From: Enchytraeus crypticus
Taxonomy: Eukaryota > Annelida > Clitellata > Enchytraeida > Enchytraeidae
Assembly (NCBI GenBank): GCA_905160935.1
Contig: CAJHZI010000476.1
Coordinates: 432,001-496,000, forward strand
Direction: 5' to 3'
Length of the DNA: 64,000 nucleotides
A program made the position numbers and the translations under genes. Shown in pieces: positions 14,058-60,373 of the stretch. Each line of letters starts with the position of its first letter. Positions within the stretch are counted from its first letter, which is position 1. A model generated the notes under the pieces. That model ran no database searches. It was given only the letters and a program-made list of their open reading frames with translations, and had not been told where the DNA came from.

Positions 14058-14271
14058 AATTGATTGATTGCTGTAATTCTAAGCATAAAACCTGTCATCA
14101 TTGTAGTAGTCTTCCACTAATAATTAACTGATTGATTGCTGTAATGCTAAGCATCAATCCTGTCACCACTATTCACTAACTGATTGATTGCTGTAATGTT
14201 AAGCAACAATCCTATCGCCACTGTGATAGTCTTCCACTAATAAATAACTGATTGATTGTTGTAATGTTAAG
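14058..14271 (+). repeat. Tandem duplication of an acceptor and exon start (A20-like exon A)
   Basis: Four copies of a 52-68 bp unit containing CTGATTGATTGCTGTAATG, then TTAAG or CTAAG, then a version of the exon start CAACAATCCTGCCACCACTG. The junctions fall at 14083, 14151, 14203 and 14271. Only the last one opens into the reading frame; the three upstream copies carry decayed exon starts. Confidence 0.75.
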
Positions 14272-17200
14272 CAACAATCCTGCCACCACTGTGGTGGCGA
14301 CCACTGCACACACCCGGTGCTCGCGTCCTACTACACCCAGGCCAACCTCAGGGACGTCGTCCCTAGACCCTGGGGGGAGTGCGGCTGTCAGGACTGCCTC
14401 GCATGGATCACCCGTGACCTAGCCCACTGCACGGAGAAATCCCGTGAGAGTCCCAACATGGAGTACATCTGCAGCAGACTGTCGAGGTGGACTGTTTGGA
14501 CGATGACTGATTTCACGGAGTTCGGGTATTTCTATCCGGTTGCAAATGATCACGACACGGATTTGTTTCTGATGTCGAAGAATATAACTAACTGGTGGAG
14601 TCCTGCTGTGAACACGCTGACTCCCATTAAGATAACAGGTGAGACTTTCTTAGAATATATGAAGATGTATTAATGTGAAATGTGATGATTTAGAGACCCA
14701 CTCATATGTGAACATAAAGAGGAAAGCGGAAGACAGAGAAGAGTGGAGGCGTTATATACCATGGACCTGCCAGTTGGCAGTGCACTAAGAGAGAGATATA
14801 TATATATTTTATATTAAGATTTATATTTCTATTTGCAGATAACTTTTAAGTTGATTTAGAGATTCTGAAATAATTCTTCCTCACAAAAAAGTGTTACGCA
14901 ACTGACGACACTTTTATGATATCAAACGATACAATGCTGTAGATACTGATTTACTAAAATAATTTTCTTGTAATTTTTCGAATCTGTTACCACCATAGAC
15001 ACATCCTCTTCTTCTTTCCTCTCCGCTTATCGGACTGTAGCGGACTCTTACTGATCTCACTTGCTCGTCTGTGACTTGTAAGAGCATCCTGGTGGTATCA
15101 GTATATCCTGTAGTTGTGTTCCTAAAATCGTCTTCAGCTTTGAAACCAGAATTAATATACTAATTTTTAAATCTTCATTATGTTATACCCATGAATATTG
15201 TTGACAGACCACTGTACTCTGTTGTGTTTTTCAGGTGATGGTAACTCTGAACATTGTGTGTTTCAGATGCTGATAACTCTCTCATGTATTTCAGGTGATG
15301 GTAGCTCTGTTGTGTGTTTCAAGTGATGGTAACTGCCTGCCGCACGCTGTATCGATGTACCTGTGATAGTAACTCTGTTGTGTGTCTCAGGAGTCATGGT
15401 AACTCTGTTGTGTGTTTCAGGTGATGGTAACTGCCTGCCCCACGCTGTATCGATGTACCTGTGGGGCATGCAGGACCACAGCATGACGCTGAGACGGCTG
15501 CTCCACACTACCCTGCTCAACTCTGACCCCGCTCTCTTCCGTGAGCGCTGGAGAAGAGAGCGAGAGTGGCAGAACTCACTGGTGCCTGACGGGGGGCTGC
15601 AGTATACAGAGGAGGTAAACTTGTTCGTCTGTCGTGATTATCGGTCTTTGAAATATTTGTTTTTGCGTTAAAATGCTTCATGTCTTCATCGGTATTTTAT
15701 AAGGTTTTTGAAAGATTTGTTTTAGTGTTAAACTATTCATTTCTTAGTATTTGGTAAAGAACAAGATTCTGAATGATGTTAACTGTAAAAAAGCTAAAGC
15801 TAAGGTTAACGTCAGTTGTAGATGAATTAAGCAGAAAATGACGACGTTGATGGGTATTGGGTTATACGGATGTATGAACAGTTGTTCATACATCCGTAAA
15901 CTGAACTGTTGTTAACAGTTTAATTACGACCTGTGGTTAAAGTGGGACTACAGAGCTAAGAGAACGGTCTGAAATTTTCAGGCCCACCAGTAGTAGAAAA
16001 GCTGGTAAAGCTAAGGTTAACGTCAGTTTCCTCACTCGAAAGCGATATTAGTGACGGGCGAGCCAAGGATTTGAACCCGCACCTACTGATCCGCGGTCGA
16101 GTATCTTACCGACTAGTTACTGGCTCCAGCTAGTGTATTTAAGGGTTTTCTAGTATCTAATATGGGCCCCCAGCAGGGGAACGCACCTCAGAAAAAATGA
16201 AAGCTAGGGGAACACAGTTCCCCTGAGTCCCCCTCCCTCACTTTAACCATTGCACGCGCCTAAACCATTACGATCAGTTAATGGCATTCTGTTAATAGAT
16301 GAAGAAATACATTGTAAAAATGTGCTTATGTATTAAATATTGCCTGCCGTCAATATAAAAACACACCCCTTCCACTCCCCCACCACTGCCCCATCTAGCT
16401 TTGTTTATAATCTATTCAAAGCTGCCCCTACATATTATGAAAGGTCTGTATAAACTGTTGTTATATATATGGTATATGACTAAAACCATTAAATAATAAA
16501 TAATAATAAAGGTTTAACGTCCGTTTACTCATCCAGGGATGATGTCAGGGACGTCCCCAACAGCACACATCACTACAGATTAAGAACACTTGTTCTCTCT
16601 AGTAGGATATGTACGCCTAAAACCATTAAGAACACTTGTGCTGTGTGGTAGGAGTGGACGAGGGAATGGTCTGAGCTGGTCTCAGCGGCAGAGGATCAGA
16701 GGCGGGACTTCGACAGCGCCCGCCCCTCCCTGCCCTATGAGAGCCTCGAGGAGATCCACGTGTTTGTTCTAGCCAACGTCCTACGTCGTCCTATCATCAT
16801 CCTCTCCGAGCCCGAGATAAAGAGCATCGTCGACGGAAAATCGATGGGACAGAACAACTTCGGAGGAATATACCTTCCGCTTCTGTGGCCTTCAAAACTC
16901 TGCTACAAATACCCAGTCGTCATGAGCTTCCTCTTCAACCATTTCGAGCCTTTAGTGGCTGAGCTGCCGAAGAAGGCTTACAACGTAGCATGGCTGAAAG
17001 GAAACGTGATTCCACTTGTGACATCAACGCTGGAAATGCTTCGAGTTCACTTTACAAGCGCCGAGGAAGAGAGCGCAGTGCATAAGGTAGTACAGAACTA
17101 TCTCTACTGTAGTGAAATGGCTGTCAATCTTCAAGGATCCACAGAGTCTATTCTAGTGGCGGAGCTTCCCGGACCCGATCCTATGGTTCAGTATAAAGCA

Positions 17201-18962
17201 GAGTATCAGCTAAGTCGACCTCTCTGCTCAGATGAACTCAACCTGATCTTCACTCACAAGCAGCTCGTGTACGACCGAAGTGGGCGAAGAATTTCTAGTG
17301 AGAGTAGTGGGCGCAGTGACACTACCATCGACTTAAAGGGTTGTGTCTACTACAAGACGTATAAGATGCTTGTGGGACTGCTTGATAAACCTTCTACTAG
17401 GGACAAACTGACGAAGAAGCAGCGAAAATTAAAAGCACTGCGTGGAATACAGAATATGTCCCGTATGCTCATAAAGTATTATTTGAATCCACAACCGCTG
17501 TCGAAAATCATGACAGATATGGAGCTGGAAGAGTTGGCTGCACGGTTAGAGGAAGAATTGGACTCTAGGGATCCAGGAATGATTCCACATGGGACTTCCG
17601 GAGCACTCTCAAGTACGCATAGTGGTAGGACACCTCTATATGTTGTAAAACTTCCTTAATTACTGGAAATTAGGTTTTTGTTTTAATTAATAAAGATAAT
17701 GATTTAATGGCCTACGTATAATCTAAAAATCTTCAAAGAAGACTACTAAAGCACCGCATATGAACGCTTGAGCTGATTAACGGGCAAGCTGCAGAAGGCA
17801 AGTAGATACACCTCTAGGTATTAGCTACTTTTAAAATAAATGTGACCCGAGCCAGAATCGAACCCAGGACCACATGATCTAAAGTCTAGCACCTACATGT
17901 ATACCACTTAGCCATTAATGCTTCCGCTGGAAGAACGTTGAATAGATGACGTCAACATATCGTATTAGAAAATCATAATCTATATAGATGTAAGTCACTC
18001 GACAGATGGGAGCATGTTATAATTTTGACGTGTTTTGAAATATACCATTTTTTGGTCATTACACATTATTTTATAAATATTTTATTGGCTAATAAGCAGG
18101 GGCTGCTGGAGACGAATCCAAAATGTCAGAGATCATGAAAATAACTACTTTCTAATTATTTCTAATTATTTCTAATTACAATTACTTTCTAGATTATTGA
18201 ATCAGTTAATGTTTTCTTCTAAACTGCACGGCAATGTTGCTGCATTGATGGAATGATTGACTGATTTATTTATTGAATGATTGATTGATTGATTGACTGA
18301 TTGATTGATTGATTGTTGCAGAACTCGATGATTTACAAGACCACACTGGAGACAACTCCACTTCTCTTCGTCCTGTCTATCTCCTGTACATCCCCGCTGC
18401 TACAGGATCAGGACCCCCTCCAGAATCCTCAGGACCTACTAACAGACGTGCTCTACCTCTTCTCTCCTGCGACGAATCCGGATTAGATTACCTGAAAAGA
18501 GATACTGGACAACTTCCCTCCAGAAGTGTTCAACACGGATATAATCCTCCGGGAGAGTATAGACAGCATGAGTCCACATCGAAGTCCTCTGATGGATTAG
18601 CGGAAGTGGCTGAGTCCAGTAGTAGAACAGTCGATCCTACCCTCAGATCATCTGATGGGAGTCGTCTAGCGGAGTTGATGAGTAGAGGTCGCTTCAGAGC
18701 CCAGTGCTCGAGGTCAGGCTGCCTCAGAATCTCTGAAGTCAACAGCAATCTCTGTAGTGATTGTGCAGGCAGGGAAGGACATTCTGAGGAAGGAGCCGAG
18801 GCTGGAGTTAAAGATACATCAGAGAACATGGGAGCAGACAAGAAGAGAGATAATTGTTTTAACAGAAGATGCAATAGGCCGTGTCATGATAAGAGTATTT
18901 ACTGTAGAACCTGTGAGACAATGCTTCAAGAGAGTGATTTAGTAGAAAATATCAAACAGTAG
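14272..18962 (+). CDS. TNFAIP3: A20-like OTU-domain deubiquitinase with A20 zinc fingers (5' exon(s) not found)
   Basis: A cysteine protease that edits ubiquitin chains; A20 restrains NF-kB signalling downstream of TNF and Toll-like receptors. Exons: A 14272-14638, B 15421-15614, C 16652-17624, D 18322-18962 (724 codons plus stop; phases 1, 0, 1). Exon A begins with a Cys/His cluster (SCHHCGGDHC) and ends in NITNWWSP, as in the helix before OTU. Exon B carries GDGNCLPHAVSMYLWG with the catalytic Cys at 15432-15434. Exon C has SLEEIHVFVLANVLRRPIII and FGGIYLPLLWPS, and the catalytic His in NHFEPLV (16940-16942). Exon D has two A20-type fingers, CSRSGC-x10-CSDC and CFNRRC-x10-CRTC. The OTU block resembles A20 more than Cezanne or TRABID (YLWGMQD, CYKYP), but vertebrate A20 has seven fingers. 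The exon C donor at 17625 was chosen by phase; TCAA/GTACGC a little upstream is an alternative. No initiator exon was identified. Confidence 0.85.
14705..14800 (+). mobile_element. Dispersed repeat R5 with purine tail
   Basis: Contains GAGTGGAGGCGTTATATACC, then CCTGCCAGTTGGCAGTGCAC, ending in a GAGA/TATA tail. The same block recurs at 32632 and 34600. It is a short non-coding retroelement with no coding capacity, and lies inside intron A of the A20-like gene. Confidence 0.65.
15210..15420 (+). repeat. Acceptor array before the OTU catalytic exon
   Basis: The unit CTGTTGTGTGTTTCAG followed by GTGATGGTAACT is repeated about six times, with junctions at 15234, 15266, 15294, 15322, 15390 and 15420. 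The fourth copy also contains the first ~45 nt of the exon (NCLPHAVSMYL), but its acceptor reads CAA instead of CAG and the copy soon meets a stop. Confidence 0.85.
15865..15898. repeat. Perfect 15-bp hairpin
   Basis: TACGGATGTATGAAC at 15865-15879 is followed after 4 nt by its exact complement (15884-15898). It lies in an intron of the A20-like gene, between a short S1 fragment and an S1 copy. Confidence 0.8.
16002..16130 (-). mobile_element. tRNA-derived SINE, family S1
   Basis: A full-length minus-strand copy with body, GCGGGTTCAAATCC B box and head. It lies in intron B of the A20-like gene. Confidence 0.75.
16500..16565 (+). mobile_element. Short repeat R3 (AAT-tailed, hairpin-forming)
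   Basis: (AAT)n, then GGTTTAACGTCCGTTTACTC, then GGGATGATGTCAGGGACGTC. The ACGTCC and GGACGT ends are complementary. More than ten copies of this element occur in the window, always with an ATT/AAT tract on the same side. Confidence 0.75.
16583..16651 (+). repeat. Two-copy duplication of the exon C acceptor
   Basis: TTAAGAACACTTGTTCTC...TAGTAGGA (16583-16611) is repeated as TTAAGAACACTTGTGCTG...GTAGGAG up to the used acceptor at 16651. Confidence 0.7.
17843..17935 (-). pseudogene. tRNA-like pseudogene or SINE head
   Basis: On the minus strand, an A box (TGGCTAAGTGGTATA) is followed by an anticodon-like arm and a B box (GGGTTCGATTC). The T arm has a mismatch and the acceptor ends do not pair well, so this is not a functional tRNA. 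It lies in an intron of the A20-like gene. Confidence 0.55.
18245..18321 (+). repeat. (TTGA)n array abutting the exon D acceptor
   Basis: About twelve imperfect TTGA/CTGA units run to within 6 nt of the acceptor TTGCAG at 18321. Each TTGAT or CTGAT matches the YTNAY branchpoint consensus. Confidence 0.85.
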
Positions 18963-19032: not shown

Positions 19033-19200
19033 GCTGGAATAAAAACTGTACTACATGGAATATAGATGATGGAGATGAAATAAAAACTGTACGAGATGGA
19101 ATGCAGATGCTGGAGCTGGAATAAAAGCTGCAAGAGACGGAGTTAGTACGATTGAGCTGGAATAAAAGCTGAACGGAGATGGAATGAAGATGATAGAGCG
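19033..19200 (+). terminator. Tandem poly(A)-signal array of the A20-like gene
   Basis: AATAAA hexamers lie at 19038, 19079, 19120 and 19161, exactly 41 bp apart, within a degenerate unit GCTGGAATAAAAGCTG...GAGATGGAATG...GATG. The array starts about 75 nt after the stop codon, where a 3' UTR would be expected. All four signals are canonical. Confidence 0.75.
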
Positions 19201-20074
19201 GGAAAGAAGATTGATGCCTCATTGGATGAGCTTATCCTGAAGTTTTGATGACAACAAATGCATAGGAAATTATCAGATTCATTTTAATTAACAGTCTGTT
19301 GACGACAGTCTGTCTATATCTAATAGTGATGCTCTTAAAGTGGTGCTTAGTTGTGCTGCACTGACGCTTATTCTATATTGTTATTCTGAGGTTTAGTACC
19401 CTTCCTCGGACTGAATTCTCGGATTTTGTCTAACACCGTCTTTGGGCCCCACACTCTGCTCATCGAATTGGATTTGGTACCATAGTGCTCAATGTTGTCA
19501 TGGACTACTGTAGCACTCTACTTCTGTTGTTGTTGTTTAGTGATACGAGAGTAGGCCTAGAACTATGCCTAGAAGTGAGGCCTAATCATGCGTTACTTTG
19601 ATTTAATATAATTATGCTACGTCTAATAATGCTATTTAGCGATACTGTATGTATAAGGGTACTATATCTAACGATCAGACTTTTGGAATGCTATATTGTA
19701 ACTGATAACTATAGATATGATAGAATGATACTGTAACTGATGCTTCTACTTTGTGATACTGCGTATATTGATACTACGTATTTGTGATAATATTGACAAA
19801 GTTAACTAATTCAACGCAATTTCAACTGAACCTTGTATAGATAAAGCTTTTGATTAAGATACCTTAAAGTTGATATGATAATGAAGAAAATACTACAAAA
19901 TTGATGATAATAGTTAAATAGTGAAGCATAATTACAGTAAAATGTTTATCTATGATGTTATCTGTCATTTCTAATACCAGTCAAATACATTTATATGATT
20001 ATAAGAAGCAGATTAGCATTTCATCCATTTACCGGTTACTTGCACGTCAGAGATTTTATCTGATCAGTGTTATT

Positions 20075-25041: not shown

Positions 25042-28000
25042 ATGTGGAGCTCTGTAAGATTTCTACCTCTAATTCTTCTGTCTTTATCCGTTAGCGGATT
25101 TCAAATGGATGAATTAGCCCACACATTGCAAGATGTCGCTCCATATCTACTGAAGCAGCATCTGAGCTTTATGGTAGAACCAAGTAGGTTCTATGCTCTG
25201 CTCTATGAATTACAAAGCTTTAAACACTTATATTCCCTATATATTAAAGAAATCCTGTATTTTGTCCTGGACACTGAAGAATAGACCAACTGTTAACTGC
25301 AGCAAGAACTGAGGAAGGCAATGGGAAATCACCTCAGAAGCCATATTTTTCCCACCTTTGAGCTACATGTAGGTATAATAATGATAATAATTATAATAAT
25401 AAAGATTTAACGTCCGTTTCCTCATCCAAGGATGATATCAGGGACGTCCCTGTATGGATATGGCATACCCTTTGTGAAGGGATTAGCTTGCTGACCTAAG
25501 AAGTGCTCTTTATAGACCCCAAAAAGCAGACTCAGATTATAAATATATATCTTGGACCTGCCACTTCGCTGAGCACTGTAGAAAGAGAGACTTGTATATT
25601 GTGCACTCTGTATATCACAATGCACTGCCTACTAGCAGGTTCATGCATATAACTCCATTTTAATAAATTTACTCTGTGTTTTCTCTTCATTTCTACGTGA
25701 AAATGCCCAATCAAATCATCAAGCATCCTGGGCCTCTCTCTCCGTTTGTGACTGTGAGTCTACTGCATTCTCTGAGTCAAAGGAGAGTCAATGGATAGAT
25801 GGATATTTAGTTGCATTGCACCTTTATTCTTGGATGAACCACCCAGCGCCTTTGTGCATGCATAAGAACTGACCAATTGATTGATTGATTATTTGTAGAT
25901 CAAGCAGCTTACTGGTTATTAATGATAGAGGCTTCAGAGAGAGCCTTGATATATACTTTGATTGATTGATTATTTGTAGATCAAGCATCATAGTTCATAG
26001 AGGATCCATGCAGTGCCTATATAAAGATTAACTGATTGATTGATTGATATTTCTAGGTAATGCATCACATGTGATAGAGGACCCATGTAGTGCCTATATA
26101 AAGATTGATTGATTGATTGGTTAATTGATTGATTGATTGATATTTCTAGGCAATGCATCACACATGATAGAGGACCCATGCAGTGCCTATATAAAGATTA
26201 ATTGATTGATTGATTGATTGATATTTCTAGGCAATGCATCACACGTGATAGAGGACCCATGCAGTGCCTATATAAAGGAGTTCAGTAGTGCTGCGGCTAA
26301 CTTCAGCTCTTGTTTTGTAGAGAACGCTCGACCTCTCACGGCCTGTCTCAATTGTATCGAACAATACCTGCAGGCTATTAGAGTATTCGACACTCTAAGA
26401 CGGGTATTGTATTATAATACATGTATTGTAGAATACCTGCAGGCTATTAGAGTATTCGACGCTCTAAGACGGGTATTGTATTATAATACATGTATTGTAG
26501 AATACCTGCAGGCTATTAGAGTATTCGACGCTCTAAGACGGGTATTGTATTATAATACATGTATTGTAGAATACCTGCAGGCTATTAGAGTATTCGACGC
26601 TCTAAGACGGGTATTGTATTATAATACATGTATTGTAGAATACCTGCAGGCTATTAGAGTATTCGACGCTCTAAGACGGGTATTGTATTATAATACATGT
26701 ATTGTAGAATACCTGCAGGCTATTAGAGTATTCGACGCTCTAAGACGGGTATTGTATTATAATACATGTATTGTAGAATACCTGCAGGCTATTAGAGTAT
26801 TCGACGCTTTAAGACGGGTATTGTATTATAATACATGTATTGTAGAATACCTGCAGGCTATTAGAGTATTCGACGCTCTAAGACGGGTATTGTATTATAA
26901 TACATGTATTGTAGAATACCTGCAGGCTATTAGAGTATTCGACGCTCTAAGACGGGTATTGTATTATAATACATGTATTGTAGAATACCTGCAGGCTATT
27001 AGAGTATTCGACGCTCTAAGACGGGTATTGTATTATAATACATGTATTGTAGAATACCTGCATGCTATTAGAGTATTCGACGTTTTAAGACGGGTATTGT
27101 ATTATAATACATGTATTGTAGAAATATATACTATTCGATTACTGTTAGTATAGTATTAAGGTATTAGAGTATTCCAATTTTTAGAGAGGTGTTGAATTAT
27201 GGTACATGTCTTGTAGGAAACATGCAGGCTATTGGAGTATTTCTAGCTATATATGATAGTCTTTTGACATAATGAGGCTTGTTATTATGTGCTTTCTATT
27301 GCGTATTACTTGTTTGACTGTATGTAATTGTTGTAATTTAATATAGCGGTGTGTGATTGCATAATATGACGTCTCTGACATTGCCTTATGACACAGAACT
27401 GGACATTAAATTGGTCAGTGAACTGGTCGGAGATGTGTGGAGAAAGTCCATTCTTATCCAGAACCTAGTAACTGGGATTAAAGGGAAGATGGTGATAATG
27501 CTAATGCTGATGATGATGACGATGATGATGATGACGATGACGACGATGCCGATGATGATGATGACGATGACGATGACGATGCCGATGACAATGCCGATGA
27601 CGATGACGATAATGATGATGACGATGATGATGATGAGAATGACGTTGACGACGACGTTGACGAAGACGAAGACGATGATGATGATGACGATGATGCACTG
27701 TTGTGTATTGAATCAGGCGCCCTACAAGCCAGGCCTGACCTGTGAGCAGCATGTGCTCTCTCTCAGTCAAACACAGATCATCTGGAGCGTCCACGACTTC
27801 ATCACCTCCACATGGGAGGATTTCAACTGCCAAAGTAACACTCTCCGATCTTGTACATTAGGAGCAGTAATGAAGTAGATAATTATGCTGTTAATAGGTT
27901 ATTAATCAAGTTTTAATAATTTATTTTAAAAAGCTGGTAAAGCTAATGTTAACGTCAGTTTCCTCACTCGAAAGCGATGTCCAGGATTTGAACCCCGCAC

Positions 28001-36125: not shown

Positions 36126-36224
36126 TAAGTGATATGACGGTGAATTTCGCTCTTAGGACCTTCTTACAATTAAACTCTACAGCAGACGATGAACTTTTTC
36201 CACCTGTTGAGATCTTCACTCTTC

Positions 36225-36367: not shown

Positions 36368-39300
36368 TCATATTCTCTGCAGACCTTCGAGACTGACGTC
36401 AATCTTAATGAACGCCGCGTCGTCCTTGACAAAACCAATCTCTGGAGAGTCCAGTCGGCTCAGCTGCATGAAGCTTGGACATCCGCTAGCTATGTTCATC
36501 TCTGACCTTGGTCTTTGGAAGGATGAGCTCTGTACGTCTGGGTAGAAAGCATCCACCACGTGGTGGCTGGAGTTCTGGTTGAGGAAGGTGAAGGTTACTT
36601 TCTGACGAAATGGCCAATGAAGTAAGGCGTCACAGTTGCCCCGCATGATGACGAAGAAGATAGAGACATGGGTGCCCTTACCTACTCCGTCACCGTTCAG
36701 ATAGAGACGTGCGCACATCTTGTAGCCTGTCGACAACAACAACCATCTATCTATTCGCTATTAGGACCGCTGATTAAAATAATGAACGTGTAAGCTAGGG
36801 AGATCAGTAAGGGAATTGAAAATAACGAAATAAAATGTGAGAAAGCTTAAATTATCAAAGGATTGTCCAAAATCTTGTTCTAATGACAATAACAACAATT
36901 AGAGTGCTAAAGTCATCGATGATAACATCGAGCACTGTTGAGACAAAATCAAGCCAGCGAGCAAAACAGAAGGTGCAAAAACGATGTGATTCAAAATTCC
37001 AGAAAATCAATTCAAAGCTAAAGCAAATGAAAGAAAATGAGGTTTAGGCGCAGGTCGCAACTCAAGGATACTGGATGGAAAAGAGAGATGGAAAGATAGA
37101 TCATCAACTGCCTATGGAACTGCTCATAGGAAAGCAAAGGCTGATGTGATTCAAACATTCAACCTGCAAATAGTGCAAATAGTGAAAGAGGGAGAGATAG
37201 AGGAAGAAAGAATAGAGAGAGTGGGAGAAAGAAAGAAAGAAACAGAGAACCGGAGCAAGAGAGACAGAGACAGAGAAAGACAGAGAGAGAGAGACAGAGA
37301 GAGACAGAGAAAGAGCGATAGATAGAGACAGAGAGCGAGATATATAGAGAGAGAGATGACAGATAGACAGATAGAGAGAGCGAGAGAACAAACCAGTTTT
37401 GCTCGTATAGAATGGTGGGGAGTAGATACTCGGAACTCTGGAGCTAATAGCATCTTGTCTCCTCTGTCTCACTCCAGTGATCCTCCACAGCAACATCCCG
37501 TCATAGCTCGTCGACTCCAGTGTCCCAACCCTCAACTCCAGTTCTGCTATCACTGCCTCCTTCGTCGCTAACTTCCTGTCCATCATCCTCACTCGTTCCT
37601 CTAGGAGTCTTATTGCCTGTCTGTCTGTTTGTTCCTCTGTCTCTATCTTCTTTGTCTGATCAATAATAATCAATCGATTAAATCAGTTACAATCAATCAA
37701 GTAAATAAATCACAATCAATTATATAAAGAACAGTCAACCAATTAAATCAGTCTCAATTAATCAATTAAATCAATAACAATCAGTGAATTAAATCAGTCA
37801 CAATCCATCAATTAAATCAATAAAAATCAATCAATTAAATCAGTCATAATTAATCTATTATATCAGTCATAATCAATCAATTAAATCAATAATAGTCAAT
37901 CAATTAAATCAATCATAATCAATCAATTAAATCAGTCACAATCAATCAATTAAATCAGTCACAATCATTCAATTAAATCAATAACAATCAATCAATAATA
38001 TCAGTCATAATCAATCAATTAAATCAACCACATTCAGCCAATCATATCAATCATAACCAAGCAACAAAATCAATCAACAAAATCTAATCTTTGTCGTCTT
38101 TTACGACAGCGTCTCTATCTCGTCGTTAAATTACCTTATTGTCTATCCTCACTTACCTCGTCGTTAAATTACCTTATTCTTTAGTCTCACTTATCTTGTC
38201 GTTAAATTACCTTATTCTCTAGTCTCACTTATCTCGTAGTTAAATTACCTTATTCTCTAGTCTCACTTATCTCGTAGTTAAATTACCTTATTGTCTATCC
38301 TCACTTATCTCGTAGTGAAATTACCTTATTCTCTAGTCTCACTTACCTCGTTGTTAAATTACCTTATTCTCTAGTCTCACTTACCTCGTTGTTAAATTAC
38401 CTTATTTTCTATCCTCACTTACCTCGTCGTTAAATTACATTATTATTCTCTAGTCTCACTTATCTTGTCGTTAAATTACCTTATTCTCTAGTCTCACTTA
38501 ACTCGTTGTTACCTTATTGTCTATCTCACTTACCTCGTCGTTAAATTACCTTATTGTCAAGCCTCTCTATCTCGCTGTTAAACACTGACAGAACACTTTC
38601 TATTAGTAGTAGATTCTTAGTTGCGCCATCATCTAGAGCCGGAGATTCTGTTTTGTTTGTTGCCTTATCAGATATTAGTTTCTTTAATTCCTGAATCTGA
38701 TTTTACAGAAAACATTCAATCAATAAAATATATATTAGTTTTTGTAAGTTTATAAGCATAGGACTTCCATCAATTAGTCAATGGACTAATGAATCAATCA
38801 ATCAGATGCAAAATTCAGCGGATATTGTGCACTCTTGAAAAAGTCTCCTGGTGTTTATATAAAGCAAATATTGCACACAGTAGAGAAGTTTAAAATGAAT
38901 AGTAAAACACTAGTTCAATTTAGTTTTTGACTTCTAAATGCACTAAACCCGTTCAATTTATGTATATGTTATACTGTTGACTCTGGTCGACTTCACTGAG
39001 CTTTGAACCAGCCCTACGAGGTCACAGATTCTACAGAGATCAGCAACTTACCAACTGAACCACAGAAAAGTGCTATCTAATTCTCTTCACATTTAAAAGT
39101 ACCAAATTAGCAGAGCACGTAAGCATTCAGAGAGAAAGTGAGCGTAAATCAGTGCAAATCCAAAATCTGGTAAACTGTCCCAAGATCAGGAATGACACGA
39201 GAGGAGTATGTGGAATTATGAGGGATGTAGGATCTACACTTACTGCTTCGACTCGACATTATATCTTAGCTGGGTACAGTAGTAATCCATCAAATAGAAA

Positions 39301-41368: not shown

Positions 41369-44300
41369 GGACCTAACGCTTTGTCACAGTTTATATCATA
41401 TTCCAGATTCAATGGCAAACCTTTTCTGCACAATTGAATGGACACTGGTCCACTGCGTTTCTGCTGGAGATCTTTGTATAGCCGCACGTCGAAATATGAC
41501 TCTACATTGACAACAACAACAATTAGTTAAAGTGCTAGCACCGTCCATGACATCAGACAACATCGAAAACTACTGTATCATAGCCTGGGTGCCCAGCTAT
41601 GCTGGAGATACATTAAATGATTCAAAGCAAACCTCAGAAAAATAATCCACAGTAGAAATAAAATACCAAATACGAAAAAAAAGAAAAACAACTTGCAATA
41701 TTAATTGTTTGCTGTCACAGCATACAATTAATTATATTAAAATTATAAGCTCAACACCTATATTATTTACAGAACTCTGGTTGAGACAACAACAACAAAT
41801 CCCTGAGGCAAAACGTTATGAACAATAAAAACTAAATTACAAAAAGTAGCACACCGTGGTCAGTATATGGAATTTACTGAATAAGTAAAATATGCAAACA
41901 CTGAAACAGTTGATAGAGGTTTAACAAGTGACACAAACACTGAAGCGGCATCGGCAGCGAGATTGACAGCGATTAGAATCAACACAGCTCAGCAATTTTG
42001 AAACTACAACTACACTGAAAAATTACTGATAGAAATCATAGAATTGAAAATAAAAAATCTGTTAATAATAATAATAATAATAATACTAATAATAAAGGTT
42101 TAATGTCCGTTTCCTCATCCAGGGATGATGTCAGGGACGTTAAGAGCCCAAGTTGTTCTAAAATTATAACAATTAGCAGTAATTTTGTGTTAACAAGCTA
42201 GTTAAGTTACTGTAACCTACAATTTCAAATACTGTGAAGCAAGTTCTAAAGGATTAGTTTTTTTTAAAATTTAAGGTGAATGGCAAATTGATATTAGATT
42301 GTTTGTTAACATTTCTAACATCAAATTTAACTTAAGTTTTAAGACTTAAGTTTTTGTTGTGAACGATATAAAATATTTATAAGCATAAAATATTTCTATT
42401 CCAGTCTTGGTGTTTTAGATTGTTTTTGCCAGTTTTTGCTGGTTTTTGGCATAGTTTTTACTGGTTTTTGCCAGGGCACTGGCAAAAACCTTTTTTGCCG
42501 TGGCAAAAACCCAACTCTGGTTTTTCCCTGGTCGATACCAGTTTATACCAGTCTAAACACAGACTATATCAGTCTATGCCTAAACCAGTCTATACCAGCC
42601 GGTATCTTTCTATACTTGTCTGTGCTAGGTTATACCAGTCTGAATCAGTATATAGCAGTCTATACTAGTCTATAACAGTCTAAACCAGTCTATACCAGTC
42701 TATATCAGTCTAAACCAGTCTAAATCGGTCTAAACCAGTCTAAACCAGTCTATACCAGTCTAAACCAGCCTAAACCAGTCTATACCAGCCTATACCAGTC
42801 TAAACCAGTCTATGCCAGTATAAACATATCTATGCCAGTCAAAACCAGTCTATACCAGTCTAAACCAGTCTAAACCAGTCTGTACCAGTCTAAACTAGTC
42901 TATACCAGTCTAAGCCAGTCTAAACCAGTCTATACCAGTCTTAACCAGTCTTAACCAGTCTTAACCAGTCTAAACCAGTCTATGCCAGTCTATACCAGTC
43001 TATATCAGTCTAAACCAGTCTAAACCAGTCTAAACTAGTCTAAACCAGTCTAAACCAGTCTAAACCAGTCTAAACCAGTCTAAACCAGTCTAAACCAGTC
43101 TAAACCAGTCTAAACCAGTCTAAACCAGTCTAAACCAGTCTATACCAGTCTATACCAGTCTATACCAGTCTATACCACTCTAACCTCATAATCTCTAAAC
43201 AGCCCTGTCCACGTACAGCCTCCACTGATACATTTCACCGCCAGCCTATTCAATTCTCTCCTTAGTCCATTATCCGGATAAATCTACAAGCGTAACAATG
43301 CCAAGCTCAATGAACAAATAGTTACCACCTTTACTCTGGAGTTGTAAAAGTTTGTAAGATGCACTATAGACATAAAAATATTTTTATTCATGTACTATGG
43401 TATATAAATTATTCTTATATTGAGTTTTGCACATGGCAGTTGGGTCATCAATTTTTAAAATCGTTGTTATCCAAGTAATAATATTACATGAATTAGGCTG
43501 ACTCAGGGTAAGAGTTTGACCCATTTGAGTACAGTGAGGGTTAAAGCTAGTATAACTGAACAGGATTTTGAAAACCTGTTAAAATTAAGTAACAACGGTT
43601 TGACATTAAACAGATATTAATGATTGATTGATAATATTAGTCACCTGATTGACATTGAGTTCAAATAATGGATCATCATCATCATCGTATTCTTCTTTAC
43701 AGGCCGGGCAATTCACAGTGCATTCAGCACTAAATAACAAGCAATCTTCATGAATTACATTTAAAAGAGAAATAAGTATATAAAGATTTAAAAGAAGTAA
43801 TAGTTATATTACATTTATTAGCTACTAGGTATATTATCTATTTAGTTTATGTTATAATGAAGACAAGATGACAACATCTGAAGATGAAGACAGAAACCTA
43901 GAGTATTGTCAGTGAACTAGATCTATGAACTAAGAACTAGGAGGAAGAGCTGATCAATGGTAACTTGAAAATCCTCTCAGAACAAATACAATACTTGTTT
44001 TAAGAGGGTTTTTATACAACAGAGAGTGCTTACGAAAAATATAAGAGCAGAGAATAAGAAGAGGAAGACTATGGGGAAGCATGATGAATAGATATCAATT
44101 CAGTATGTAGAAATAAAGAGAGAGCAAAGGATTGTGAAGAGCAGATGGCCTATGATACATACGATAGGTATATAGCCTGATCCATCCATTAGGAATTGCG
44201 CTGATAGGAAATGTTCAATAAAACATTCATTAATCCATTAGGAATTGCGCTGATAGGAAATGTTCAATAAAACATTCATTATTCAATAAAACCACATTAA

Positions 44301-49450: not shown

Positions 49451-49467
49451 CATTATTTATTATTATT

Positions 49468-49731
49468 CCAGCGTATTATGTATTATTATTATTATTCCAG
49501 CATATTATTTATTATTTTTATTATTACAGCATATTATTTATTATTATTCCAACGCATTATTTATTATTATTATTGTTCCAGCGTATTATTTATTATTATT
49601 ATTATTCCAGCGTATTATTTATTATTATTATTCCAGCGTATTATTTATTATTAATTATTAATTATTAATTATTATTCTAGCGTATTATTTATTAGTATTC
49701 CAGCGTTTATTTATTATTATTATAAATCCAG
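49468..49731 (+). repeat. Acceptor array before CPT2 exon 2
   Basis: (TTATTATTATT)CCAGCGTATTATT is repeated about ten times, with CCAG, ACAG or CTAG each followed by CGTATT, until the last CCAG (49728-49731) leads into CGTCGCAG and coding sequence. The (ATT) part may come from the tail of the adjacent R3 copy. Confidence 0.85.
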
Positions 49732-52700: not shown

Positions 52701-53527
52701 ATGTTCCCTTTTGTTTTATATTTAAAATTTATTTTATTTTTTGAATTGTTATATAGTTTTATGTTGGCTGAAATTAATAGCTTATAGTTTGCCTATTAAA
52801 CTAGAATATCATTATTGTTTAAGTATATATTATTAAACTAGAATATCATTATTGTTTAAGTATATATGCTTTATACAAGCGCTCTGCTGTCTATACACAT
52901 TAGTATATAATGGATGTTATATTAGTAGCATTTGATATAATTTGTTCATAGCATTTGTACATTTTGTTCATAGCATTTGATATTAATATCCTGAATGCAC
53001 ATATATATTTACACCTTACACTGAAGTTTATGTGAAATATAGAATCCAAGGGATATTTATTAGAATGTGTGTTTGCTACAGTTACCTGCCTAAGGCTATA
53101 TCGTGGTACGGCGCCTATTGGTACATGGCCTTTCCTCTTGATATGAGTCAGTATGGGCGATTGTTCAACTCTACCAGGATACCCAGGTACATGTGTACTT
53201 ATACAATGCTAAGTATAACTTGTATATAATAGGCTATACCTGTGTACATATACAACGCTAAGTATAACTTGTATATAATAGGCTATACCTGTGTACATAT
53301 ACAACGCTAAGTATAACTTGTATATAATAGGCTATACCTGTGTACATATACAACGCTAAGTATAACTTGTATATAATAGGCTATACCTGTGTACATATAC
53401 AACGCTAAGTATAACTTGTATATAATAGGCTATACCTGTGTACATATACAACGCTAAGTATAACTTGTATATAATAGGCTATACCTGTGTACATATACAA
53501 CGCTAAGTATAACTTGTATATAATAAG

Positions 53528-53579
<52 letters not shown>

Positions 53580-54535: not shown

Positions 54536-57321
54536 ATATATTTATATATATATTATTTATCATGTATTTTCCACACAGGCTCTATCCTGCCTGCCTCTGA
54601 CATCATGGCACATCTCAAGTACATAGCGGCCGATAACACGCCCACCCCCAGCCACTGCACGGGTGTGTTGACGGGAGATGGGAGGGACGTTTGGTGCAAG
54701 GCCAGGCAGCAGCTGGAAGCTAACGGTGGGTTCCTCTTTCTCTGCTCTCTGTGTTCACGTGTAGTCTATTCCTAACTCCTGGAGTTTGATTAGTGATCCG
54801 TGACATTTTATCACAAATTTGCTGCCTCCATAATTCTAGTTGTCACCTGATTGATGAAAGAGAATTTGAGAGAAGTTAACAGTGTCATATAATATAGTAA
54901 TAGAGTATATTTCTAACTTCTCTTCTATACTTCAGATCACTTTAGATGAACCGATTGTAGTGAAATGTGATGTAGACACGTCCTGACATCTCCCCTATAT
55001 GAGGAAACAGACGTTAAACCTTTATTTTTGTTATTATTATTATTATTAGTACCATTATTATAGACAAATGATTGTTAGATGATTTTTCATTGATCACTAT
55101 TAATATACTACTGTAATGTTGTGGCTTTATTTAGTATGATTGTTTTTTAGCTGTTGATTTCAGATGATTTGATTGATTGATAGGTAACGGAGAGAGTTTG
55201 AAGCTGATAGATGGCGCTATCATGATGATTTCAAATGATTTGATTGATTGATAGGTAATGGGGACAGCTTGAAGCTGATAGATGGCGCTATCATGGTTCT
55301 GTCGCTAGAAGATGATTGTAAACTAGAAGATCCTAATCAACTCTCTCGTCTCTTTCTCTACGGCAATGCTGCTAACAGGTCAGAATCTCCTATCAGTCAT
55401 GTTGTAGATCTTCTAAGATTTTATACCTTGTGCTTGACTATAGGATTCTTCTCCTGATGTATTATTTCTTACTGTATATGGCATATTTGTAGAGATGTAT
55501 TGATTGATTGATTGATTGATTAATTAATGTATTGACTGATTGACTGATTGATTGATTGATTGATGATCAGATGGTTTGACAAGAGCTTCACACTGATAGT
55601 CACAGGTACTGGTACCACAGCGGTGAACTTTGAGCACTCGTGGGGAGATGGTGTGGCTGTGCTCAGATATATGAACGAGACGTTCAAGGACACGACGGAC
55701 AAACCCAAGGTCACGTCGTCCAGTGCTGGACCAAGAGTCACAACCGTCGACTCTGCCTCAGCCGTCAGGAGGCTAGGTGACAGTTAATTAATTAATTAAC
55801 TCAATAATATAATAATTAAAAAATAATACTAATAATAAATTTAATATATAATTAATTAAGTACCTGGATATTACATATACCGTCGAATGATTAGGTATAT
55901 CGTAATATATTTGTAGATTAATTAAATGAACTAAGTAATTAATTAATTAACTAATAAATCAATTCATTAACTTATAAATATGAATAGTGATTGCAGCTAC
56001 TTACGTCGTATTATTTGACGGAATGGTTCAGTTAGCTAATTTTGAATTCAGTGTAATGAAATATCCTGAGCGGCACTCTGTAGACAGCACGAGTATTATT
56101 GATATAGAGCTATTGATTAGCTGATTGATTGATTTAGACTGGAAGCTAAACGACGCGTTGAAGCAGATGATAGAAGAGTCGAGTAGACGCTTTGAGGACA
56201 GCACGAGTAGGATTGACATAGACTACTTCCAACATCACAAGTTTGGTAAAGATCTCATCAAGAAGAACAAGCTCAGTCCGGACTCATTTATGCAGCTCGC
56301 TTTTCAGGTCTGTCCTAATGATTAGCTCAACGTCGGCTAAACTCCACAAGGAATACTTTCAGAAGAGGCAAGGCTGGGATTTGAATGGATGGCCTCCTTT
56401 TTATTAAACAAGCTTGCTATCCTCTCGACTACACAACCGGTTGACTGGCAGATTTTAGCAGGCTTTTTATAATAAGCTTGCTAAAATAATTATTTATTTA
56501 TAATTATTTGATTTGCCAACAGATGTTATCTGATAGACCATTACTAACTATCTTGTGCTTGTATAGGTGGCGTATTACAAGCAGCATGGTGCCACTATTA
56601 CATATTATATATTGTAATACATCATCTTGTGTAGATGACGTATTACAAACAGTACGGTGCCACTATTATCTATCTTGTGCTTGTATAGGTGGTGTATTAC
56701 AAGCAGCACGGTGCCAATATTACATATTACCTATCTTGTGTAGATGACGTATTACAAACAGCACAGTGCCACTATTATCTATCTTGTGCTTGTATAGATG
56801 GCGTATTACAAACAGCATGGTGCCACTATTATCTATCTTGTGTAGATGGCGTATTACAAGCAGCACGGTGCTACAGTAGCGACATACTGTTACTATTGCC
56901 TATCTTGTGTCAGTGTAGATGGCGTATTCCAAGCAGCACGGTGCTACTATTACCTATCTTGTGTAGATGGCGTATTACAAGCAGCACGGTGCCACTATTA
57001 CCTATCTTGTGTCTGCATAGATGGCATATTACAAGCAGCATGGTGCCACTGTACTGTTACTATTACCTATCTTGTGTAGATGGCGTATTACAAGCAGCAC
57101 GGTGCCACGGTAGCTACATATGAGTCATGCAGCACTGCAGCGTTCAAGCACGGTCGCACTGAGACCATCAGACCAGCCACATCAGCCACCAGGGCGGCCT
57201 GTCAGCTCTTCTCTACACGCAAGGCCTCAGTGACTGAGCTGAGACATAGTCTGGAGCAGTGCTCTAAAGTACATGGGCAGCTCACTAAAGACGCTGCCAT
57301 GGGTATGTCCTGATCTCTTTA

Positions 57322-57375
<54 letters not shown>

Positions 57376-60129
57376 ATCTCTTTATCTCTCTGTCTGTCTC
57401 TCTGTCTGTCTCTCGCTCTCTCTCTCTCTTTCTCTCTCTCTCTGTCTGTCTCTCTCTGTCTCTTCTCTCTCTGTCTCTCTCTCTCTTCAGTGCACTGCCA
57501 AGTGGCAGGTTCAAGGTACGTATTCATACTCAAAGTCTGCTTTCTCGCTCCATAAGAGCACTCCTTAGATCAACAAGTTAATCCCTTCACAAAGTCTATG
57601 CCTTATCCATACCTTATGTAGCCTATATCTTGGGAAAAGTATGGCTTCTGAGGTGGTTTCCCGTTGCCTTCCTCACTTAGATGGATTAATTAACATTTAA
57701 TCCTGGGAGAAAATATTTCATGGTGAGGTGGGTCCCCTCTTGCCATCCTCAGCTCCTGCCTTAGTCGCCTCTGCTTAACCATACTCTAGTTATTTATTAA
57801 TTACTCATTTTGCTTCATTTCTATTATTTATTTATTATATTATTCTATTATTATTATATCATTTCTATTATTTATTTATTTATATTATTCTATTATTATT
57901 ATATCATTTCTATTATTTATTTATTTATATTATTTATTTTTCTTTTTTTGTTAGTTTTTAAGTTTTTAATGCCCTGGGCTGTATAGGGCCCTGAGCTAAA
58001 AATAAGATAAAAGCAGGAGTTTATTTAGTTAAAAAAAGATAAAAAGAAATGTTTAAAATAATTCCTCTACACTCTGGGAGGCCGCATTCGCCAATGTGCC
58101 ACGAACATAGACAGCAATAAAGCGCTGAAGTGCAATAGATAGGCGCTGCCATAGAAAGGCTTTTTCTCGTTGGTCGCCTGTAATAGTGCTGATTTTCCTG
58201 CCTAATTCGTTTATGAAGTCAGACGCGGCAGAGTTGATGGGGCCCAATGTCTCAAAAGCAATTAGCAGGAAGATGTAGCTGCTAGAGACTGCAGCATATT
58301 TAAGGGACTTCCAATTGGCAGCGGCTTCAGCAGCTGAGCCAGCAGCAGCACATGAAAGGCTGAGATTGCTTGCTGAGAATGTGTCTGTCACAGTGACATC
58401 CCAGCTGATACACTTGCCTTCAGCCCAAGGAATTTGAGATACACCATCCGGTCGTTTCCCATCCGAGCGGCTCAATCCCTGGGGCTCTTTATTAGTTGTT
58501 TTTATTAATTAATTATTAGTTGTTTCTGTTAATTAATTATTAATGTTTCTATTATTTGTTGGTTAGTGTTATTTAATTACTTTAATTGATTACTGTTTAT
58601 TATGGTATACATTTAATATTTTATGATTTAAGACTATTGCAGAAATCACCATATTTATATATTATTATTTTATTTGTATTATTTTCTAATTCTTTGTTCT
58701 TCTTTATTTATTTTAATATTTATTCAGTACTTTAATATTCTCTTAAGTCTATGTAGAGAATCAATTTATCTTATATTATTTTAAATTTATTGAAATTATT
58801 TTATTTTACTTTTGTTATTTAAACTTTTTATTTTTTATATCTTTTTGCACTCCTTAAACAGCCTTCGCTCGATTAATTAGTTAAGCCCTTCACAAATGGC
58901 TGCCATATCCACACCGCAATTTAATCAGTAGCTTGAAAATTTATGGCTCTGAGAGGGTTTCCCGTTGCCTCTTCACTCAACTCTTTCTTAGTCGTCTTTT
59001 TACGGCACATACAGTTTGTGGTTGGTCTATTCTTCAGTGTCTCGGACTCAATATATTGTATTGTTACAGGTCAGGGATTTGATCGACACCTGTTTGGATT
59101 GAGGAATATGGCGGAGTCGTTGGGTAAACCTGTGCCAGGGATCTACAAGGACCCCTCGTATGCCCTCATCAACCACAATATCCTCTCCACTTCCACGCTA
59201 TCCAGTCCTGCCATTCTTATCGGAGGCTTTGCTCCGGTAGTGCCGGATGGCTACGGAGTAGGTATGTATCAGCAACGCCAAGTCTGACGGCACGGCTGTT
59301 AGTGCTGAATCCTTGCTCTCAAGGCATGGAGTTGTTAACATCAGTGACATCTCGTGAATGTGTGCAAACTATTGATATGTAATTTACACGTATGTTGCCA
59401 TGATGTAACTTTCCATGATTTATGTAACTATGAATATGTAACCAGGTATAACTTTCAAGGCACATATTTATAATTTCTTTTCTAATCTCCTGAGTGAATG
59501 ATATGATGCTTTTAATAAAGCCATATACCAATAAACCAGTGCTGTGGCTGAATCTTATTCCTGATTTACGATTATTGCTTTTTGCTACGTTCATTAAACA
59601 GTCAAAGCTAAAAGAATAGTGATTAACTAATTGTTTGACTGATTAGTTTGTTAATTGCTGGACTGTTTTTTATATATTTATTGATTTTTTAATTGAATGA
59701 TGACAGATTTTTTGATTGATTAAGTAGTAATAATAATAATATAGGTGTAACGTCCGTTTCCTCATACAAGGATGATGTCAGGGACGTCATAGACGTTAGT
59801 AGTAGTAGTATGCACTTCTGCGCACCGATGTGTGCAAGCAACACTTGCAATCATAGGTACGTGAAAAAGAAGGCAGCACACTAGTCCCAATCCACTCCAT
59901 TAATTGATTGATTGACTGTTGTTTAATTGATTGATTGACTGTTGTTTAATTGATTGATTGACTGTTGTTTAATTGATTGATTGACACAGGCTATGGCATA
60001 GAGGACGACTATCTAGGGTGTAACGTGACGAGCTACCCGCCCAACAGAAACCTCAGAGAATTCCTCGACTGTGTCAGAGAGAGCTTCGACGACTTACAGG
60101 CCGTGCTAGAGGGCAGGGCTCCTAAATAG
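49732..60129 (+). CDS. CPT2: CPT2, mitochondrial carnitine O-palmitoyltransferase 2 (13 exons; first exon not found)
   Basis: CPT2 on the inner mitochondrial membrane converts acylcarnitines back to acyl-CoA for beta-oxidation. Exons: 49732 (or 49740)-49943, 50519-50578, 51237-51340, 52102-52235, 53082-53186, 53817-53914, 54579-54725, 55255-55378, 55571-55776, 56138-56307, 57080-57302, 59070-59261, 59990-60129. All phases close, giving 637 codons before the stop; human CPT2 has 658, so only a short N-terminal piece with the targeting peptide is missing. Landmarks: [68 protein letters not shown], the catalytic His in [14 protein letters not shown] (CAC at 55635), [20 protein letters not shown], and [14 protein letters not shown] with [14 protein letters not shown]. 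These match CPT2 rather than CPT1 (no N-terminal membrane pair). Exon 5 begins at an internal TAG/ATCGTC acceptor, giving [20 protein letters not shown]. Confidence 0.93.
50005..50165 (-). mobile_element. SINE family S2
   Basis: An inverted copy with CTTCCCTTGAATCACAGTTC and TGAGACTTTTCCGTTCGTTT; CPT2 intron after exon 2. Confidence 0.7.
50650..50775 (+). mobile_element. tRNA-derived SINE, family S1
   Basis: Head (GGCGACTTAGGTAAGATACT), B box and full body ending CCTTAGCTTTACTTTTA. Confidence 0.75.
51015..51105 (+). mobile_element. tRNA-derived SINE, family S1, internally deleted
   Basis: The head and B box are intact (GTGGCGATGTCGGTAAGATA, GGGGTTCAAATCCTGGGCTC). Most of the body is missing, with a jump from TCGTCCG to TTAACTTTAGCAGC. 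Confidence 0.7.
51490..51700 (+). repeat. ~45-bp tandem repeat in CPT2 intron
   Basis: Four imperfect copies of GTGTGGCTGGGCTTCCACTG followed by TGTGTGAAGGGGGTATGTTA. About 150 bp after the exon ending at 51340. Confidence 0.85.
51865..52035 (+). repeat. ~33-bp array upstream of CPT2 exon 52102-52235
   Basis: Six copies of AAGATTTAGATGATCATGCAG with AACAT spacers. They stop about 65 nt before the used acceptor and contain GCAG each time. Confidence 0.8.
52425..52565 (+). mobile_element. tRNA-derived SINE, family S1
   Basis: A full-length copy from CTGGCTGGAGCCAGTGGTGA through GGGGTTCAAATC to the AGCCTTAGG tail. Confidence 0.75.
53187..53530 (+). repeat. 49-bp x 7 array starting at a CPT2 donor
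   Basis: The array begins with the donor after CCCAG (GTACATGTGTACTTATACAA). It repeats GTGTACATATACAACGCTAA plus GTATAACTTGTATATAATAG with an exact 49-bp period. Copies after the first are identical, so expansion is recent. Confidence 0.9.
53530..53577. repeat. (CT)n microsatellite
   Basis: About 45 bp of CT directly after the 49-bp array. Confidence 0.9.
53790..53816 (+). repeat. (TTGA)n at a CPT2 acceptor
   Basis: GGGTTGATTGATTGATTGAT followed directly by TGATAG, the acceptor of the exon starting at 53817. Confidence 0.85.
53930..54055 (+). repeat. (CTATAATATAA)n array after a CPT2 donor
   Basis: About eleven copies begin 15 nt after the donor at 53915. The donor-proximal GTATAATCATTAACT is found again at the far end (54058). 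Confidence 0.85.
54360..54560. repeat. (AT)n microsatellite
   Basis: About 200 bp of AT with interruptions, ending shortly before the CPT2 acceptor at 54578. Confidence 0.9.
55170..55254 (+). repeat. Duplicated acceptor plus exon start (CPT2 exon 55255-55378)
   Basis: TTGATTGATTGATAG then GTAACGGAGAGAGTTTGAAG (acceptor at 55183) is repeated 71 bp on as the used acceptor (55254) with GTAATGGGGACAGCTTGAAG. The upstream copy carries about 40 nt of the exon, ending CTATCATGATG. Confidence 0.9.
55500..55570 (+). repeat. (TTGA)n at a CPT2 acceptor
   Basis: TTGATTGATTGATTGATTAA and ACTGATTGATTGATTGATGA run to the acceptor GATCAG at 55570. Confidence 0.85.
56070..56137 (+). repeat. Intronic copy of an internal piece of CPT2 exon 56138-56307 plus (TTGA)n
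   Basis: GTAGACAGCACGAGTATTAT with GATATAGAG resembles exon nucleotides 56196-56225 (GAGGACAGCACGAGTAGGAT and GACATAGAC). It lies just upstream of CTGATTGATTGATTTAG, the used acceptor. Confidence 0.65.
56360..56440 (-). mobile_element. tRNA-like element
   Basis: On the minus strand: GTTGTGTAGTCGAGAGGATA (A-box area) and CATTCAAATCCCAGCC (B box). Probably a SINE head or tRNA pseudogene; CPT2 intron. Confidence 0.5.
56520..57079 (+). repeat. Ten-copy array of a CPT2 acceptor and exon start
   Basis: Units of about 45-60 bp: CTATCTTGTG(T)TAG then ATGGCGTATTACAAGCAGCA and CGGTGCCACTATTAC. Acceptors lie at 56566, 56634, 56688, 56743, 56797, 56845, 56918, 56966, 57020 and the used one at 57079. 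Each copy keeps 25-27 nt of exon (MAYYKQHGA). Confidence 0.93.
57320..57490. repeat. (CT)n-rich tract
   Basis: CTCTCT with CTGT interruptions, directly after the CPT2 donor at 57303. Confidence 0.9.
57960..58490 (-). mobile_element. Retroelement fragment with possible restriction-like endonuclease domain
   Basis: The minus-strand frame of 140 codons (58475-58053) reads [40 protein letters not shown] and [20 protein letters not shown], then RLSIALQR. Sequences like this (RPDG...WDVTV, ETLG, ELGRR, TGD, RLSIAIQRGN) recur at the C-terminus of animal retroelement proteins. The RPDG...WDVT spacing resembles a PD-(D/E)xK nuclease; that reading is tentative. A 3' UTR (CCCTGGGCTGTATAGGGCCC) follows and is found again at 62003-62130. 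CPT2 intron. Confidence 0.65.
59720..59795 (+). mobile_element. Short repeat R3 copy
   Basis: (AAT)n, TGTAACGTCCGTTTCCTCAT and AGGATGATGTCAGGGACGTC; CPT2 last intron. Confidence 0.75.
59900..59989 (+). repeat. 24-bp (TTGA-containing) array at the last CPT2 acceptor
   Basis: TTGATTGATTGACTGTTGTT plus TAA is repeated three and a half times and ends in TTGACACAG, the acceptor at 59989. Confidence 0.9.
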
Positions 60130-60373
60130 AGTAGGGCAGGGCTCCTAAATAGAGTAGGGCAGGGCTCCTAAATAGAGTAGGGCTCCTAAATAGAGTAGGG
60201 CTTCTAAATAGAGTAGGGCTTCTAAATAGAGTAGGGCTCCTAAATAGAGTAGGGCAGGGCTCCTAAATAGAGTAGGGCTCCTAAATAGAGAAGGGCTCCT
60301 AAATAGAGTAGGGCAGTGCTCCTAAATAGTGTAGGGCAGGGCTCCTAAATAGAGTAGGGCAGGGCTCCTAAGT
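60108..60373 (+). repeat. Array of the CPT2 C-terminus and stop codon
   Basis: The final codons GGCAGGGCTCCTAAATAG (GRAPK, stop at 60127-60129) are repeated as GAGTAGGGCAGGGCTCCTAA-TAGA (18 and 23 bp variants), about twelve copies in all, through the start of the 3' UTR. Confidence 0.92.

Follow-up and report, generated by a model that had tools for sequence, protein, structure and literature searches.

Zhuo et al. reportedly traced introns to tandem arrays in 2007. Several described systems come close to the arrangement considered here. In the potato RdRp gene, one tandem duplication across an intron-exon boundary made a new intron (PMC4974935), in Drosophila intron sliding is described together with the gain of introns through tandem duplication of exon sequence containing AGGT (PMC2891723), and human genes located in segmental duplications carry variable internal tandem repeats (PMC2812944), all as given in the accessible portions of these papers. 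The present analysis concerns a window of 64,000 nucleotides from the annelid Enchytraeus crypticus (assembly GCA_905160935.1, contig CAJHZI010000476.1, positions 432,001 to 496,000), as well as introns of three gene families elsewhere in the same assembly. Within the scope of these three families and this one assembly, an excess of tandem arrays at splice acceptors is clear.

Four spliced genes of the window hold the arrays of interest. The identities given to them in an earlier note, which was made from the letters of the DNA, are backed by Pfam in all four cases, with some scores under the curated cut-offs:

16652-17656, plus strand: A20-like gene, OTU domain (Pfam 42.1 bits, above the cut-off)
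15333-15668: A20-like gene, second OTU match (Pfam 22.6 bits, just under the cut-off)
OSTM1 gene: Pfam OSTMP1 at 22.2 bits, under its cut-off of 25.8
TRAF-like gene, minus strand: RING, with zf-C3HC4 above the cut-off and TRAF3_RING (25.3) just under it
CPT2 gene, plus strand: Pfam Carn_acyltransf above the cut-off in three exons

The CPT2 model comprises 13 exons, with an open reading frame through to its stop. Among the best 120 of 1585 matches listed, the CPT2 protein shows 54-57% identity with named full-length animal sequences (e.g. Lingula anatina) and up to 62% with unnamed ones, and no second allele of the CPT2 region appears among the matches listed (best 40 of 349 candidates scored). 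Outside the four array genes, a 350-codon open frame on the minus strand (9499-10551) holds a bZIP_Maf domain (49.9 bits). Moreover, a dispersed repeat is found on both strands of the window (for example at 15960-16130 and 27898-28035, and on the minus strand at 36173-36352 and 50568-50846), whose copies share a similar translation and which looks like an old mobile element.

Array detection with TRF gave 134 rows in the window. When boundaries were taken from reading the sequence around the exons and from the CPT2 model, seven arrays were found to contain a used boundary (four acceptors, two donors and one stop), and a further candidate is listed last:

15216..15432, plus strand: A20-like (OTU) intron, imperfect array of acceptor and exon-head copies (TRF, sequence)
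26028..26277, plus strand: OSTM1 acceptor array, each unit made of (TTGA)n, TTTCTAG and 47 nt of exon head (TRF, sequence)
26363..27123, plus strand: OSTM1 donor array, 69 nt x 11, 99% matches (TRF, sequence)
38119..38555, minus strand: TRAF donor array, 38 nt unit, last exon base 38550 (TRF, sequence)
55155..55295, plus strand: CPT2 acceptor array, 71 nt x 2, spanning the acceptor 55255 with 41 nt of exon included (TRF)
56548..57150, plus strand: CPT2 acceptor array of several units, ending in exon 57080 (TRF, sequence)
60110..60371, plus strand: CPT2 stop array, beginning 20 nt before the coding end (the stop ends at 60129) and extending into the 3′ UTR (TRF, CPT2 model)
14061..14293, plus strand: candidate eighth array, its unit with a probable acceptor and exon head, exon start at about 14272 (TRF, sequence)

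That such arrays often carry adjoining exon sequence, as the earlier note had stated, is borne out by the 47 nt present at the OSTM1 acceptor and by the 41 nt present at the OSTM1 donor, where the unit joins this exon tail to 28 nt of intron head (last exon base 26403; tail copy with 19/20 identities). In the A20-like array the used acceptor lies at the exon start 15421, the exon-head copy has 19/20 identities, and one of the upstream copies, in which AA replaces AG, includes about 46 nt of exon. The repeats of the OSTM1 acceptor array lie upstream of the used acceptor 26231 (head copy 19/20). In the case of CPT2, the exon-head copy shows 16/20 identities in the 71-nt array and 20/20 in the array that ends in exon 57080, whose unit joins TATCTTGTGTAG to some 29 nt of exon head. 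Two strong donor-like sites, AAG/GTAATT and GAG/GTAAGT, recur in every unit of the TRAF donor array. The 99% match between the 69-nt OSTM1 units points to an array that is either young or homogenised; 69 being a multiple of three, the stretch 26218-27150 (plus strand) is open in frame for 311 codons, and a retained intron would encode a 23-residue repeat. The open reading frame that holds the candidate eighth array has PIP49_C as its sole Pfam match (E 0.0059, under the cut-off).

Copies of the first 20 nt of the exon are present in the adjoining intron at 4/19 modelled acceptors of the window, and exon-tail copies at the OSTM1 donor and the CPT2 stop, among 18 exon ends examined. By eye, part of the interior of the next exon (56138) can be recognised in diverged form in a CPT2 intron at 56080-56115, GACAGCACGAGTA...ATTGA.ATAGA, like an old, decayed boundary duplication. 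Repeated AATAAA, the poly(A) signal, is present by inspection at 19033-19204. The stop codon and the poly(A) signal are each represented by one array only.

Another seven arrays of the window adjoin a boundary without containing it, two of them at donors and five at acceptors (before 18322, 49732, 53817, 55571 and 59990, at 2 to 8 intron bases from the exon). Four of the latter are (ATTG)n runs and one is TTATT-rich:

18244-18315, 53729-53814, 55499-55564 and 59899-59985: (ATTG)n runs, ending 2-6 nt before four used acceptors
49452..49723, plus strand: CPT2 array of TTATT...TTCCAG units, ending 8 nt before the exon start 49732 (TRF)
53188..53531, plus strand: CPT2 donor-adjacent array, 49 nt x 7, beginning at the second intron base (intron start 53187; TRF)
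42631..43183, minus strand: TRAF donor-adjacent array, 10-nt unit, beginning at the second intron base after the last exon base 43185 (TRF)

The CPT2 array at 49452..49723 holds no 20-nt exon-head copy (best 10/20), and the TRAF donor-adjacent array is without exon sequence. The pentamer TTGAT fits the yUnAy branch motif, and the (ATTG)n runs beside acceptors might be rows of branch sites. The earlier note had counted at least fifteen arrays that contain or begin exactly at a boundary; the arrays themselves are there, but for about half of them the word exactly goes too far, with seven arrays containing a boundary and seven abutting one, and the figure of 15 is reached only when neighbouring arrays are included.

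By themselves, the window counts stay near those given by random placement of its 26 arrays in the 16 introns with both ends modelled, a count outside which lie the first acceptors of the A20-like and OSTM1 genes, whose upstream exons are without a model. There is no array excess at window acceptors (2 spanning against 1.3 expected, and 0 ending at the acceptor against 0.48), nor at window donors (1 spanning against 1.28, and 1 starting at the donor against 0.44).

The wider sample comprised introns of CCT (Cpn60_TCP1), MCM and kinesin genes from the 524-Mb assembly (802 contigs). Exon-match rows amounted to 52/57 for Cpn60_TCP1 at E 1e-3 (intronless ones omitted) with 15/23 extra from a lax search, 26/26 for MCM and 123/128 for kinesin; 24/27 kinesin regions were sampled. 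Junctions were called from profile-position continuity, reading phase and GT-AG sites scored by a generic weight matrix, and 93 introns were obtained in this way from the 117 pairs of adjacent exons, across 39 regions (188 kb). The remaining 24 pairs, without an acceptable GT-AG call, were left out, and some of the uncalled or later recovered pairs have acceptor- or donor-spanning copies by eye, so the counts are incomplete. One HMM-matched 'exon' in C268 was taken as an intronic copy and removed by hand. The null model was a random placement in which array-exon overlap of up to 40 nt was allowed, and the expected counts depend on it. Some Cpn60/TCP1-type matches are devoid of the introns of other family members (C259:219813-222410, C400:245545-248142 and C373:1699388-1700899); these intronless matches lie in open frames of 894 and 554 codons, and those of C259 and C400 have the same scores and spacing.

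TRF arrays with a period of at least 10 nt number 112 and are located in 69 of the 93 introns; head-to-tail units of this size, the mark of tandem duplication, are present in the window and in the sample alike. Nineteen arrays span an acceptor where 5.25 would be expected by random placement, and 8 end at one against 1.97 expected, whereas those ending within 60 nt upstream of an acceptor show no clear excess (11 against 10.13). The excess therefore sits in the arrays that include the AG and not in those merely nearby. Donors in the same introns are at chance, with 5 arrays spanning (5.19 expected), 1 starting at the donor (1.94) and 12 within 60 nt (10.05). The idea put forward in the earlier note, that arrays are associated with splice sites beyond random, thus stands for acceptors (19 vs 5.25) and fails for donors (5 vs 5.19) and for the window alone. 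Donor anchoring as a general rule was dropped on this chance level, and the individual donor-spanning arrays (OSTM1, TRAF and five in the 93-intron sample) are genuine.

In a measure free of TRF, the first 20 nt of the exon are copied (at least 16 identities) in their own intron at 19/93 acceptors, and the last 20 nt at 4/93 donors (McNemar p 0.0015). Control sequence taken 40 nt inside the exon has copies at 4/93 on the acceptor side and 0/93 on the donor side. As the sample grew, the exon-head counts at acceptors versus donors were 11 vs 2 (37 introns), 13 vs 4 (57) and 16 vs 4 (78), and the first kinesin batch showed no difference by this measure (2/20 at acceptors and 2/20 at donors). The locally duplicated share is 0.41 in the last 140 nt of the intron, 0.17 in the first 140 nt and 0.21 in the middle (79 introns, p ~2e-4); 350-400 nt upstream of the acceptor it is about 0.15-0.2, from where it rises until it reaches some 0.45 at -60, before dropping in the exon, and near donors it stays at about 0.1-0.2.

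With strict junction calls, 11 arrays span an acceptor against 3.62 expected, and kinesins alone give 6 against 2.06 (p 0.017), their donors giving 3 against 2.04. A bootstrap over regions puts the difference between acceptor and donor arrays at 0.226 per intron (95% CI 0.083-0.358). A gene-level sign test is not significant (acceptor above donor in 10 of 39 regions and below in 5, p 0.30), since several hits fall in the same genes. Introns with arrays measure 913 nt and those without 761 nt, which is not significant either (p 0.10).

Regarding the anatomy of the units, the -25 to +15 region of 22 acceptors recurs in 56 upstream copies, located 35 to 538 nt away. The median length of shared sequence is 31.5 nt on the intron side of the AG and 33.5 nt on the exon side, where the measure was capped at 60. 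There is no preference for units divisible by three (period mod 3 remainders of 0, 2 and 1 in 9, 7 and 6 of the 22 acceptors), and a branch-point signature is absent at the left unit end, where an A lies 5′ of the boundary in 6/22. On visual inspection, short direct repeats common to intron and exon are found at some of the unit ends. The AG is intact in 53/56 upstream copies. If used, 35 of these 53 would shift the frame, 16 would bring in a new stop and 2 would leave it open (51/53 breaking the frame). Scored against the used acceptor, 20 are higher, 22 equal within half a bit and 11 lower. Among 38 dinucleotide offsets the AG is the best kept (0.95 against a mean of 0.76), and AGs within other intronic arrays are kept at 0.79; this ranking was relied on in place of Wilcoxon p values, which are only approximate, since nearly every acceptor keeps the AG in either all or none of its copies. 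The retention of the AG in the copies speaks for either some function or the youth of these copies.

The most likely pathway, which we consider probable with a good measure of reserve, is that whole acceptors undergo short duplications repeatedly, that the copy nearest the exon is the one spliced, and that introns thereby grow at their 3′ ends. Short tandem duplications, typically from tens of nt to about 130 nt, recur in the genome, and at acceptors the duplicated unit consists of the intron tail, the AG and the exon head (medians of about 32 and 34 nt), with copies stacking on the intron side. The exon-proximal copy would then be spliced, as suggested by the continuity of the reading frame, and each duplication would presumably leave the protein unchanged and the intron longer at its 3′ end. 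As for the cause of the acceptor excess, two kinds remain: some process may generate duplications at acceptors, or the copies may be retained by selection. It is only tentatively, and with rather less than even confidence, that we take the acceptor to be favoured for duplication or tandem acceptors to be kept, so that introns grow 3′ and, in 27/93, the spliceosome meets a series of near-identical acceptors, among which the right protein comes only from the copy next to the exon. Between these causes we lean towards an acceptor-linked bias in how the duplications arise, which would be tolerated because the last acceptor copy stays complete.

Selection could instead keep tandem acceptors because they offer a redundant branch region, pyrimidine tract and AG, or regulated decoys for transcript decay. 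It would fit the excess of AG-including arrays and the lack of one for arrays just upstream, as well as the conservation of the AG in 53 of 56 copies, which was not a criterion in choosing them and which tops the 38 offsets. Against this, the copies inside one array are not independent (13/56 come from a single array), 51 of the 53 AG-bearing copies would be costly if used, unless they are ignored or serve decay, and acceptors with arrays are not weaker than the others (PWM medians 5.2 vs 5.6, p 0.30), so that weak acceptors in need of a simple backup were rejected as a cause. On balance, selection appears doubtful, but it is the main rival to the acceptor-linked bias as regards the cause. A uniform neutral duplication filtered by geometry, in which hits in exons are lost and boundary arrays are the survivors, would explain the direction of the arrays, their exon content, the donor counts (5 vs 5.19) and the window counts. 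Indeed, the observation in the earlier note that acceptor arrays run upstream and donor arrays downstream is correct as a description, but it is no evidence for a mechanism: copies inside the exon would change the protein, so arrays must extend into the intron, and under this constraint only their frequency, and not their direction, is evidential. Uniform duplication is nevertheless unlikely, since it cannot give 27 acceptor-including arrays where about 7 are expected, nor a density above that of the mid-intron, where tolerance should peak. Masking of dispersed repeats, incomplete and based on the sampled sequence only, leaves the excess in place (acceptor 0.416, donor 0.162 and middle 0.216 in 65 introns), which speaks against a dilution of the mid-intron by such repeats.

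Microsatellite slippage, with (ATTG)n and (TG)n tracts near acceptors seeding larger arrays, has in its favour that 18% of introns contain (ATTG)n-type 8-mers within their last 100 nt, versus 9% in the middle and 0% within the first 100 nt, that (ATTG)n runs terminating next to acceptors make up several of the arrays in the window, and that mid-intron windows filled by simple repeats reach a duplication density of 0.568, with no acceptor excess in such windows (0.465 at acceptors). However, where the last 80-100 nt are free of simple repeats the acceptor excess is the same (0.37 vs 0.145, and 0.36 vs 0.086), which makes slippage quite improbable as the explanation and agrees with the earlier note in that slippage alone is insufficient. 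The least credible of these routes, and a highly improbable one, is RNA-templated: a lariat-exon intermediate would be reverse-transcribed up to a stop at the branch point, with a switch to the exon head and recombination into the gene. Such a route would be acceptor-specific, and its units would start close to the branch point and reach into the exon; the usual distance of the branch point from the acceptor is indeed close to the median left extent of 31.5 nt. But an A stands at the left unit boundary in only 6 of 22 cases, and the short direct repeats seen by eye at some unit ends fit an ordinary microhomology-mediated duplication.

If the acceptor excess extends to the whole genome, intron growth would be tied to a specific splice signal and not to random insertion. 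The genome would offer a natural series of genes with one to thirteen extra near-identical acceptors competing with the real one, and how the spliceosome selects one of several equal 3′ splice sites would become directly testable. A bias restricted to acceptors also raises the questions of why donors escape, in what way introns lengthen and how the last of several near-identical sites is recognised in splicing.

The comparison with the known systems helps to delimit what is particular to these arrays. As in the potato RdRp gene, the duplication extends across the 3′ splice site, joining an intron tail with branch site, tract and AG to an exon head, according to the available text (PMC4974935); acceptor-crossing of this type was found in 19 arrays of the 93 introns and at 15421, 26231, 55255 and 57080 of the window. 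The potato case, as that text presents it, is a single event in one gene, with the donor for the new intron coming from the exon head (PMC4974935), whereas here many genes are involved, often with several copies, and use of the upstream copies is not indicated. With Drosophila the arrays share a tandem duplication near coding boundaries that alters intron structure, but in the accessible part of that work it is a coding segment that is duplicated, giving rise to a new intron (PMC2891723), and here the units hold intron tail and lie inside an existing intron. None of the acceptor units described here is a coding AGGT unit with a new intron between its copies, and the analogy with intron gain by duplication of AG/GT-containing exon sequence, drawn in the earlier note, falls away, the units being intron tail plus exon head within introns that already exist. 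The human paralogue repeats are similar in that repeats at exon-intron boundaries can change intron structure; they are recent, paralogue-specific and inside exons, and the accessible portion of the paper states no acceptor-versus-donor excess (PMC2812944). NAGNAG acceptors, named in the accessible part of the Drosophila paper (PMC2891723), also place more than one candidate AG near the exon, but their spacing is three nt, an arrangement that the arrays do not show, and here whole 3′ splice sites are repeated at 35-538 nt. No report of an acceptor-versus-donor array excess of this kind was found in the open-access literature, subscription papers being mostly outside the scope of the search. 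The kind of event is known from these systems, and what seems new is its frequency at acceptors, in multiple copies and not at donors.
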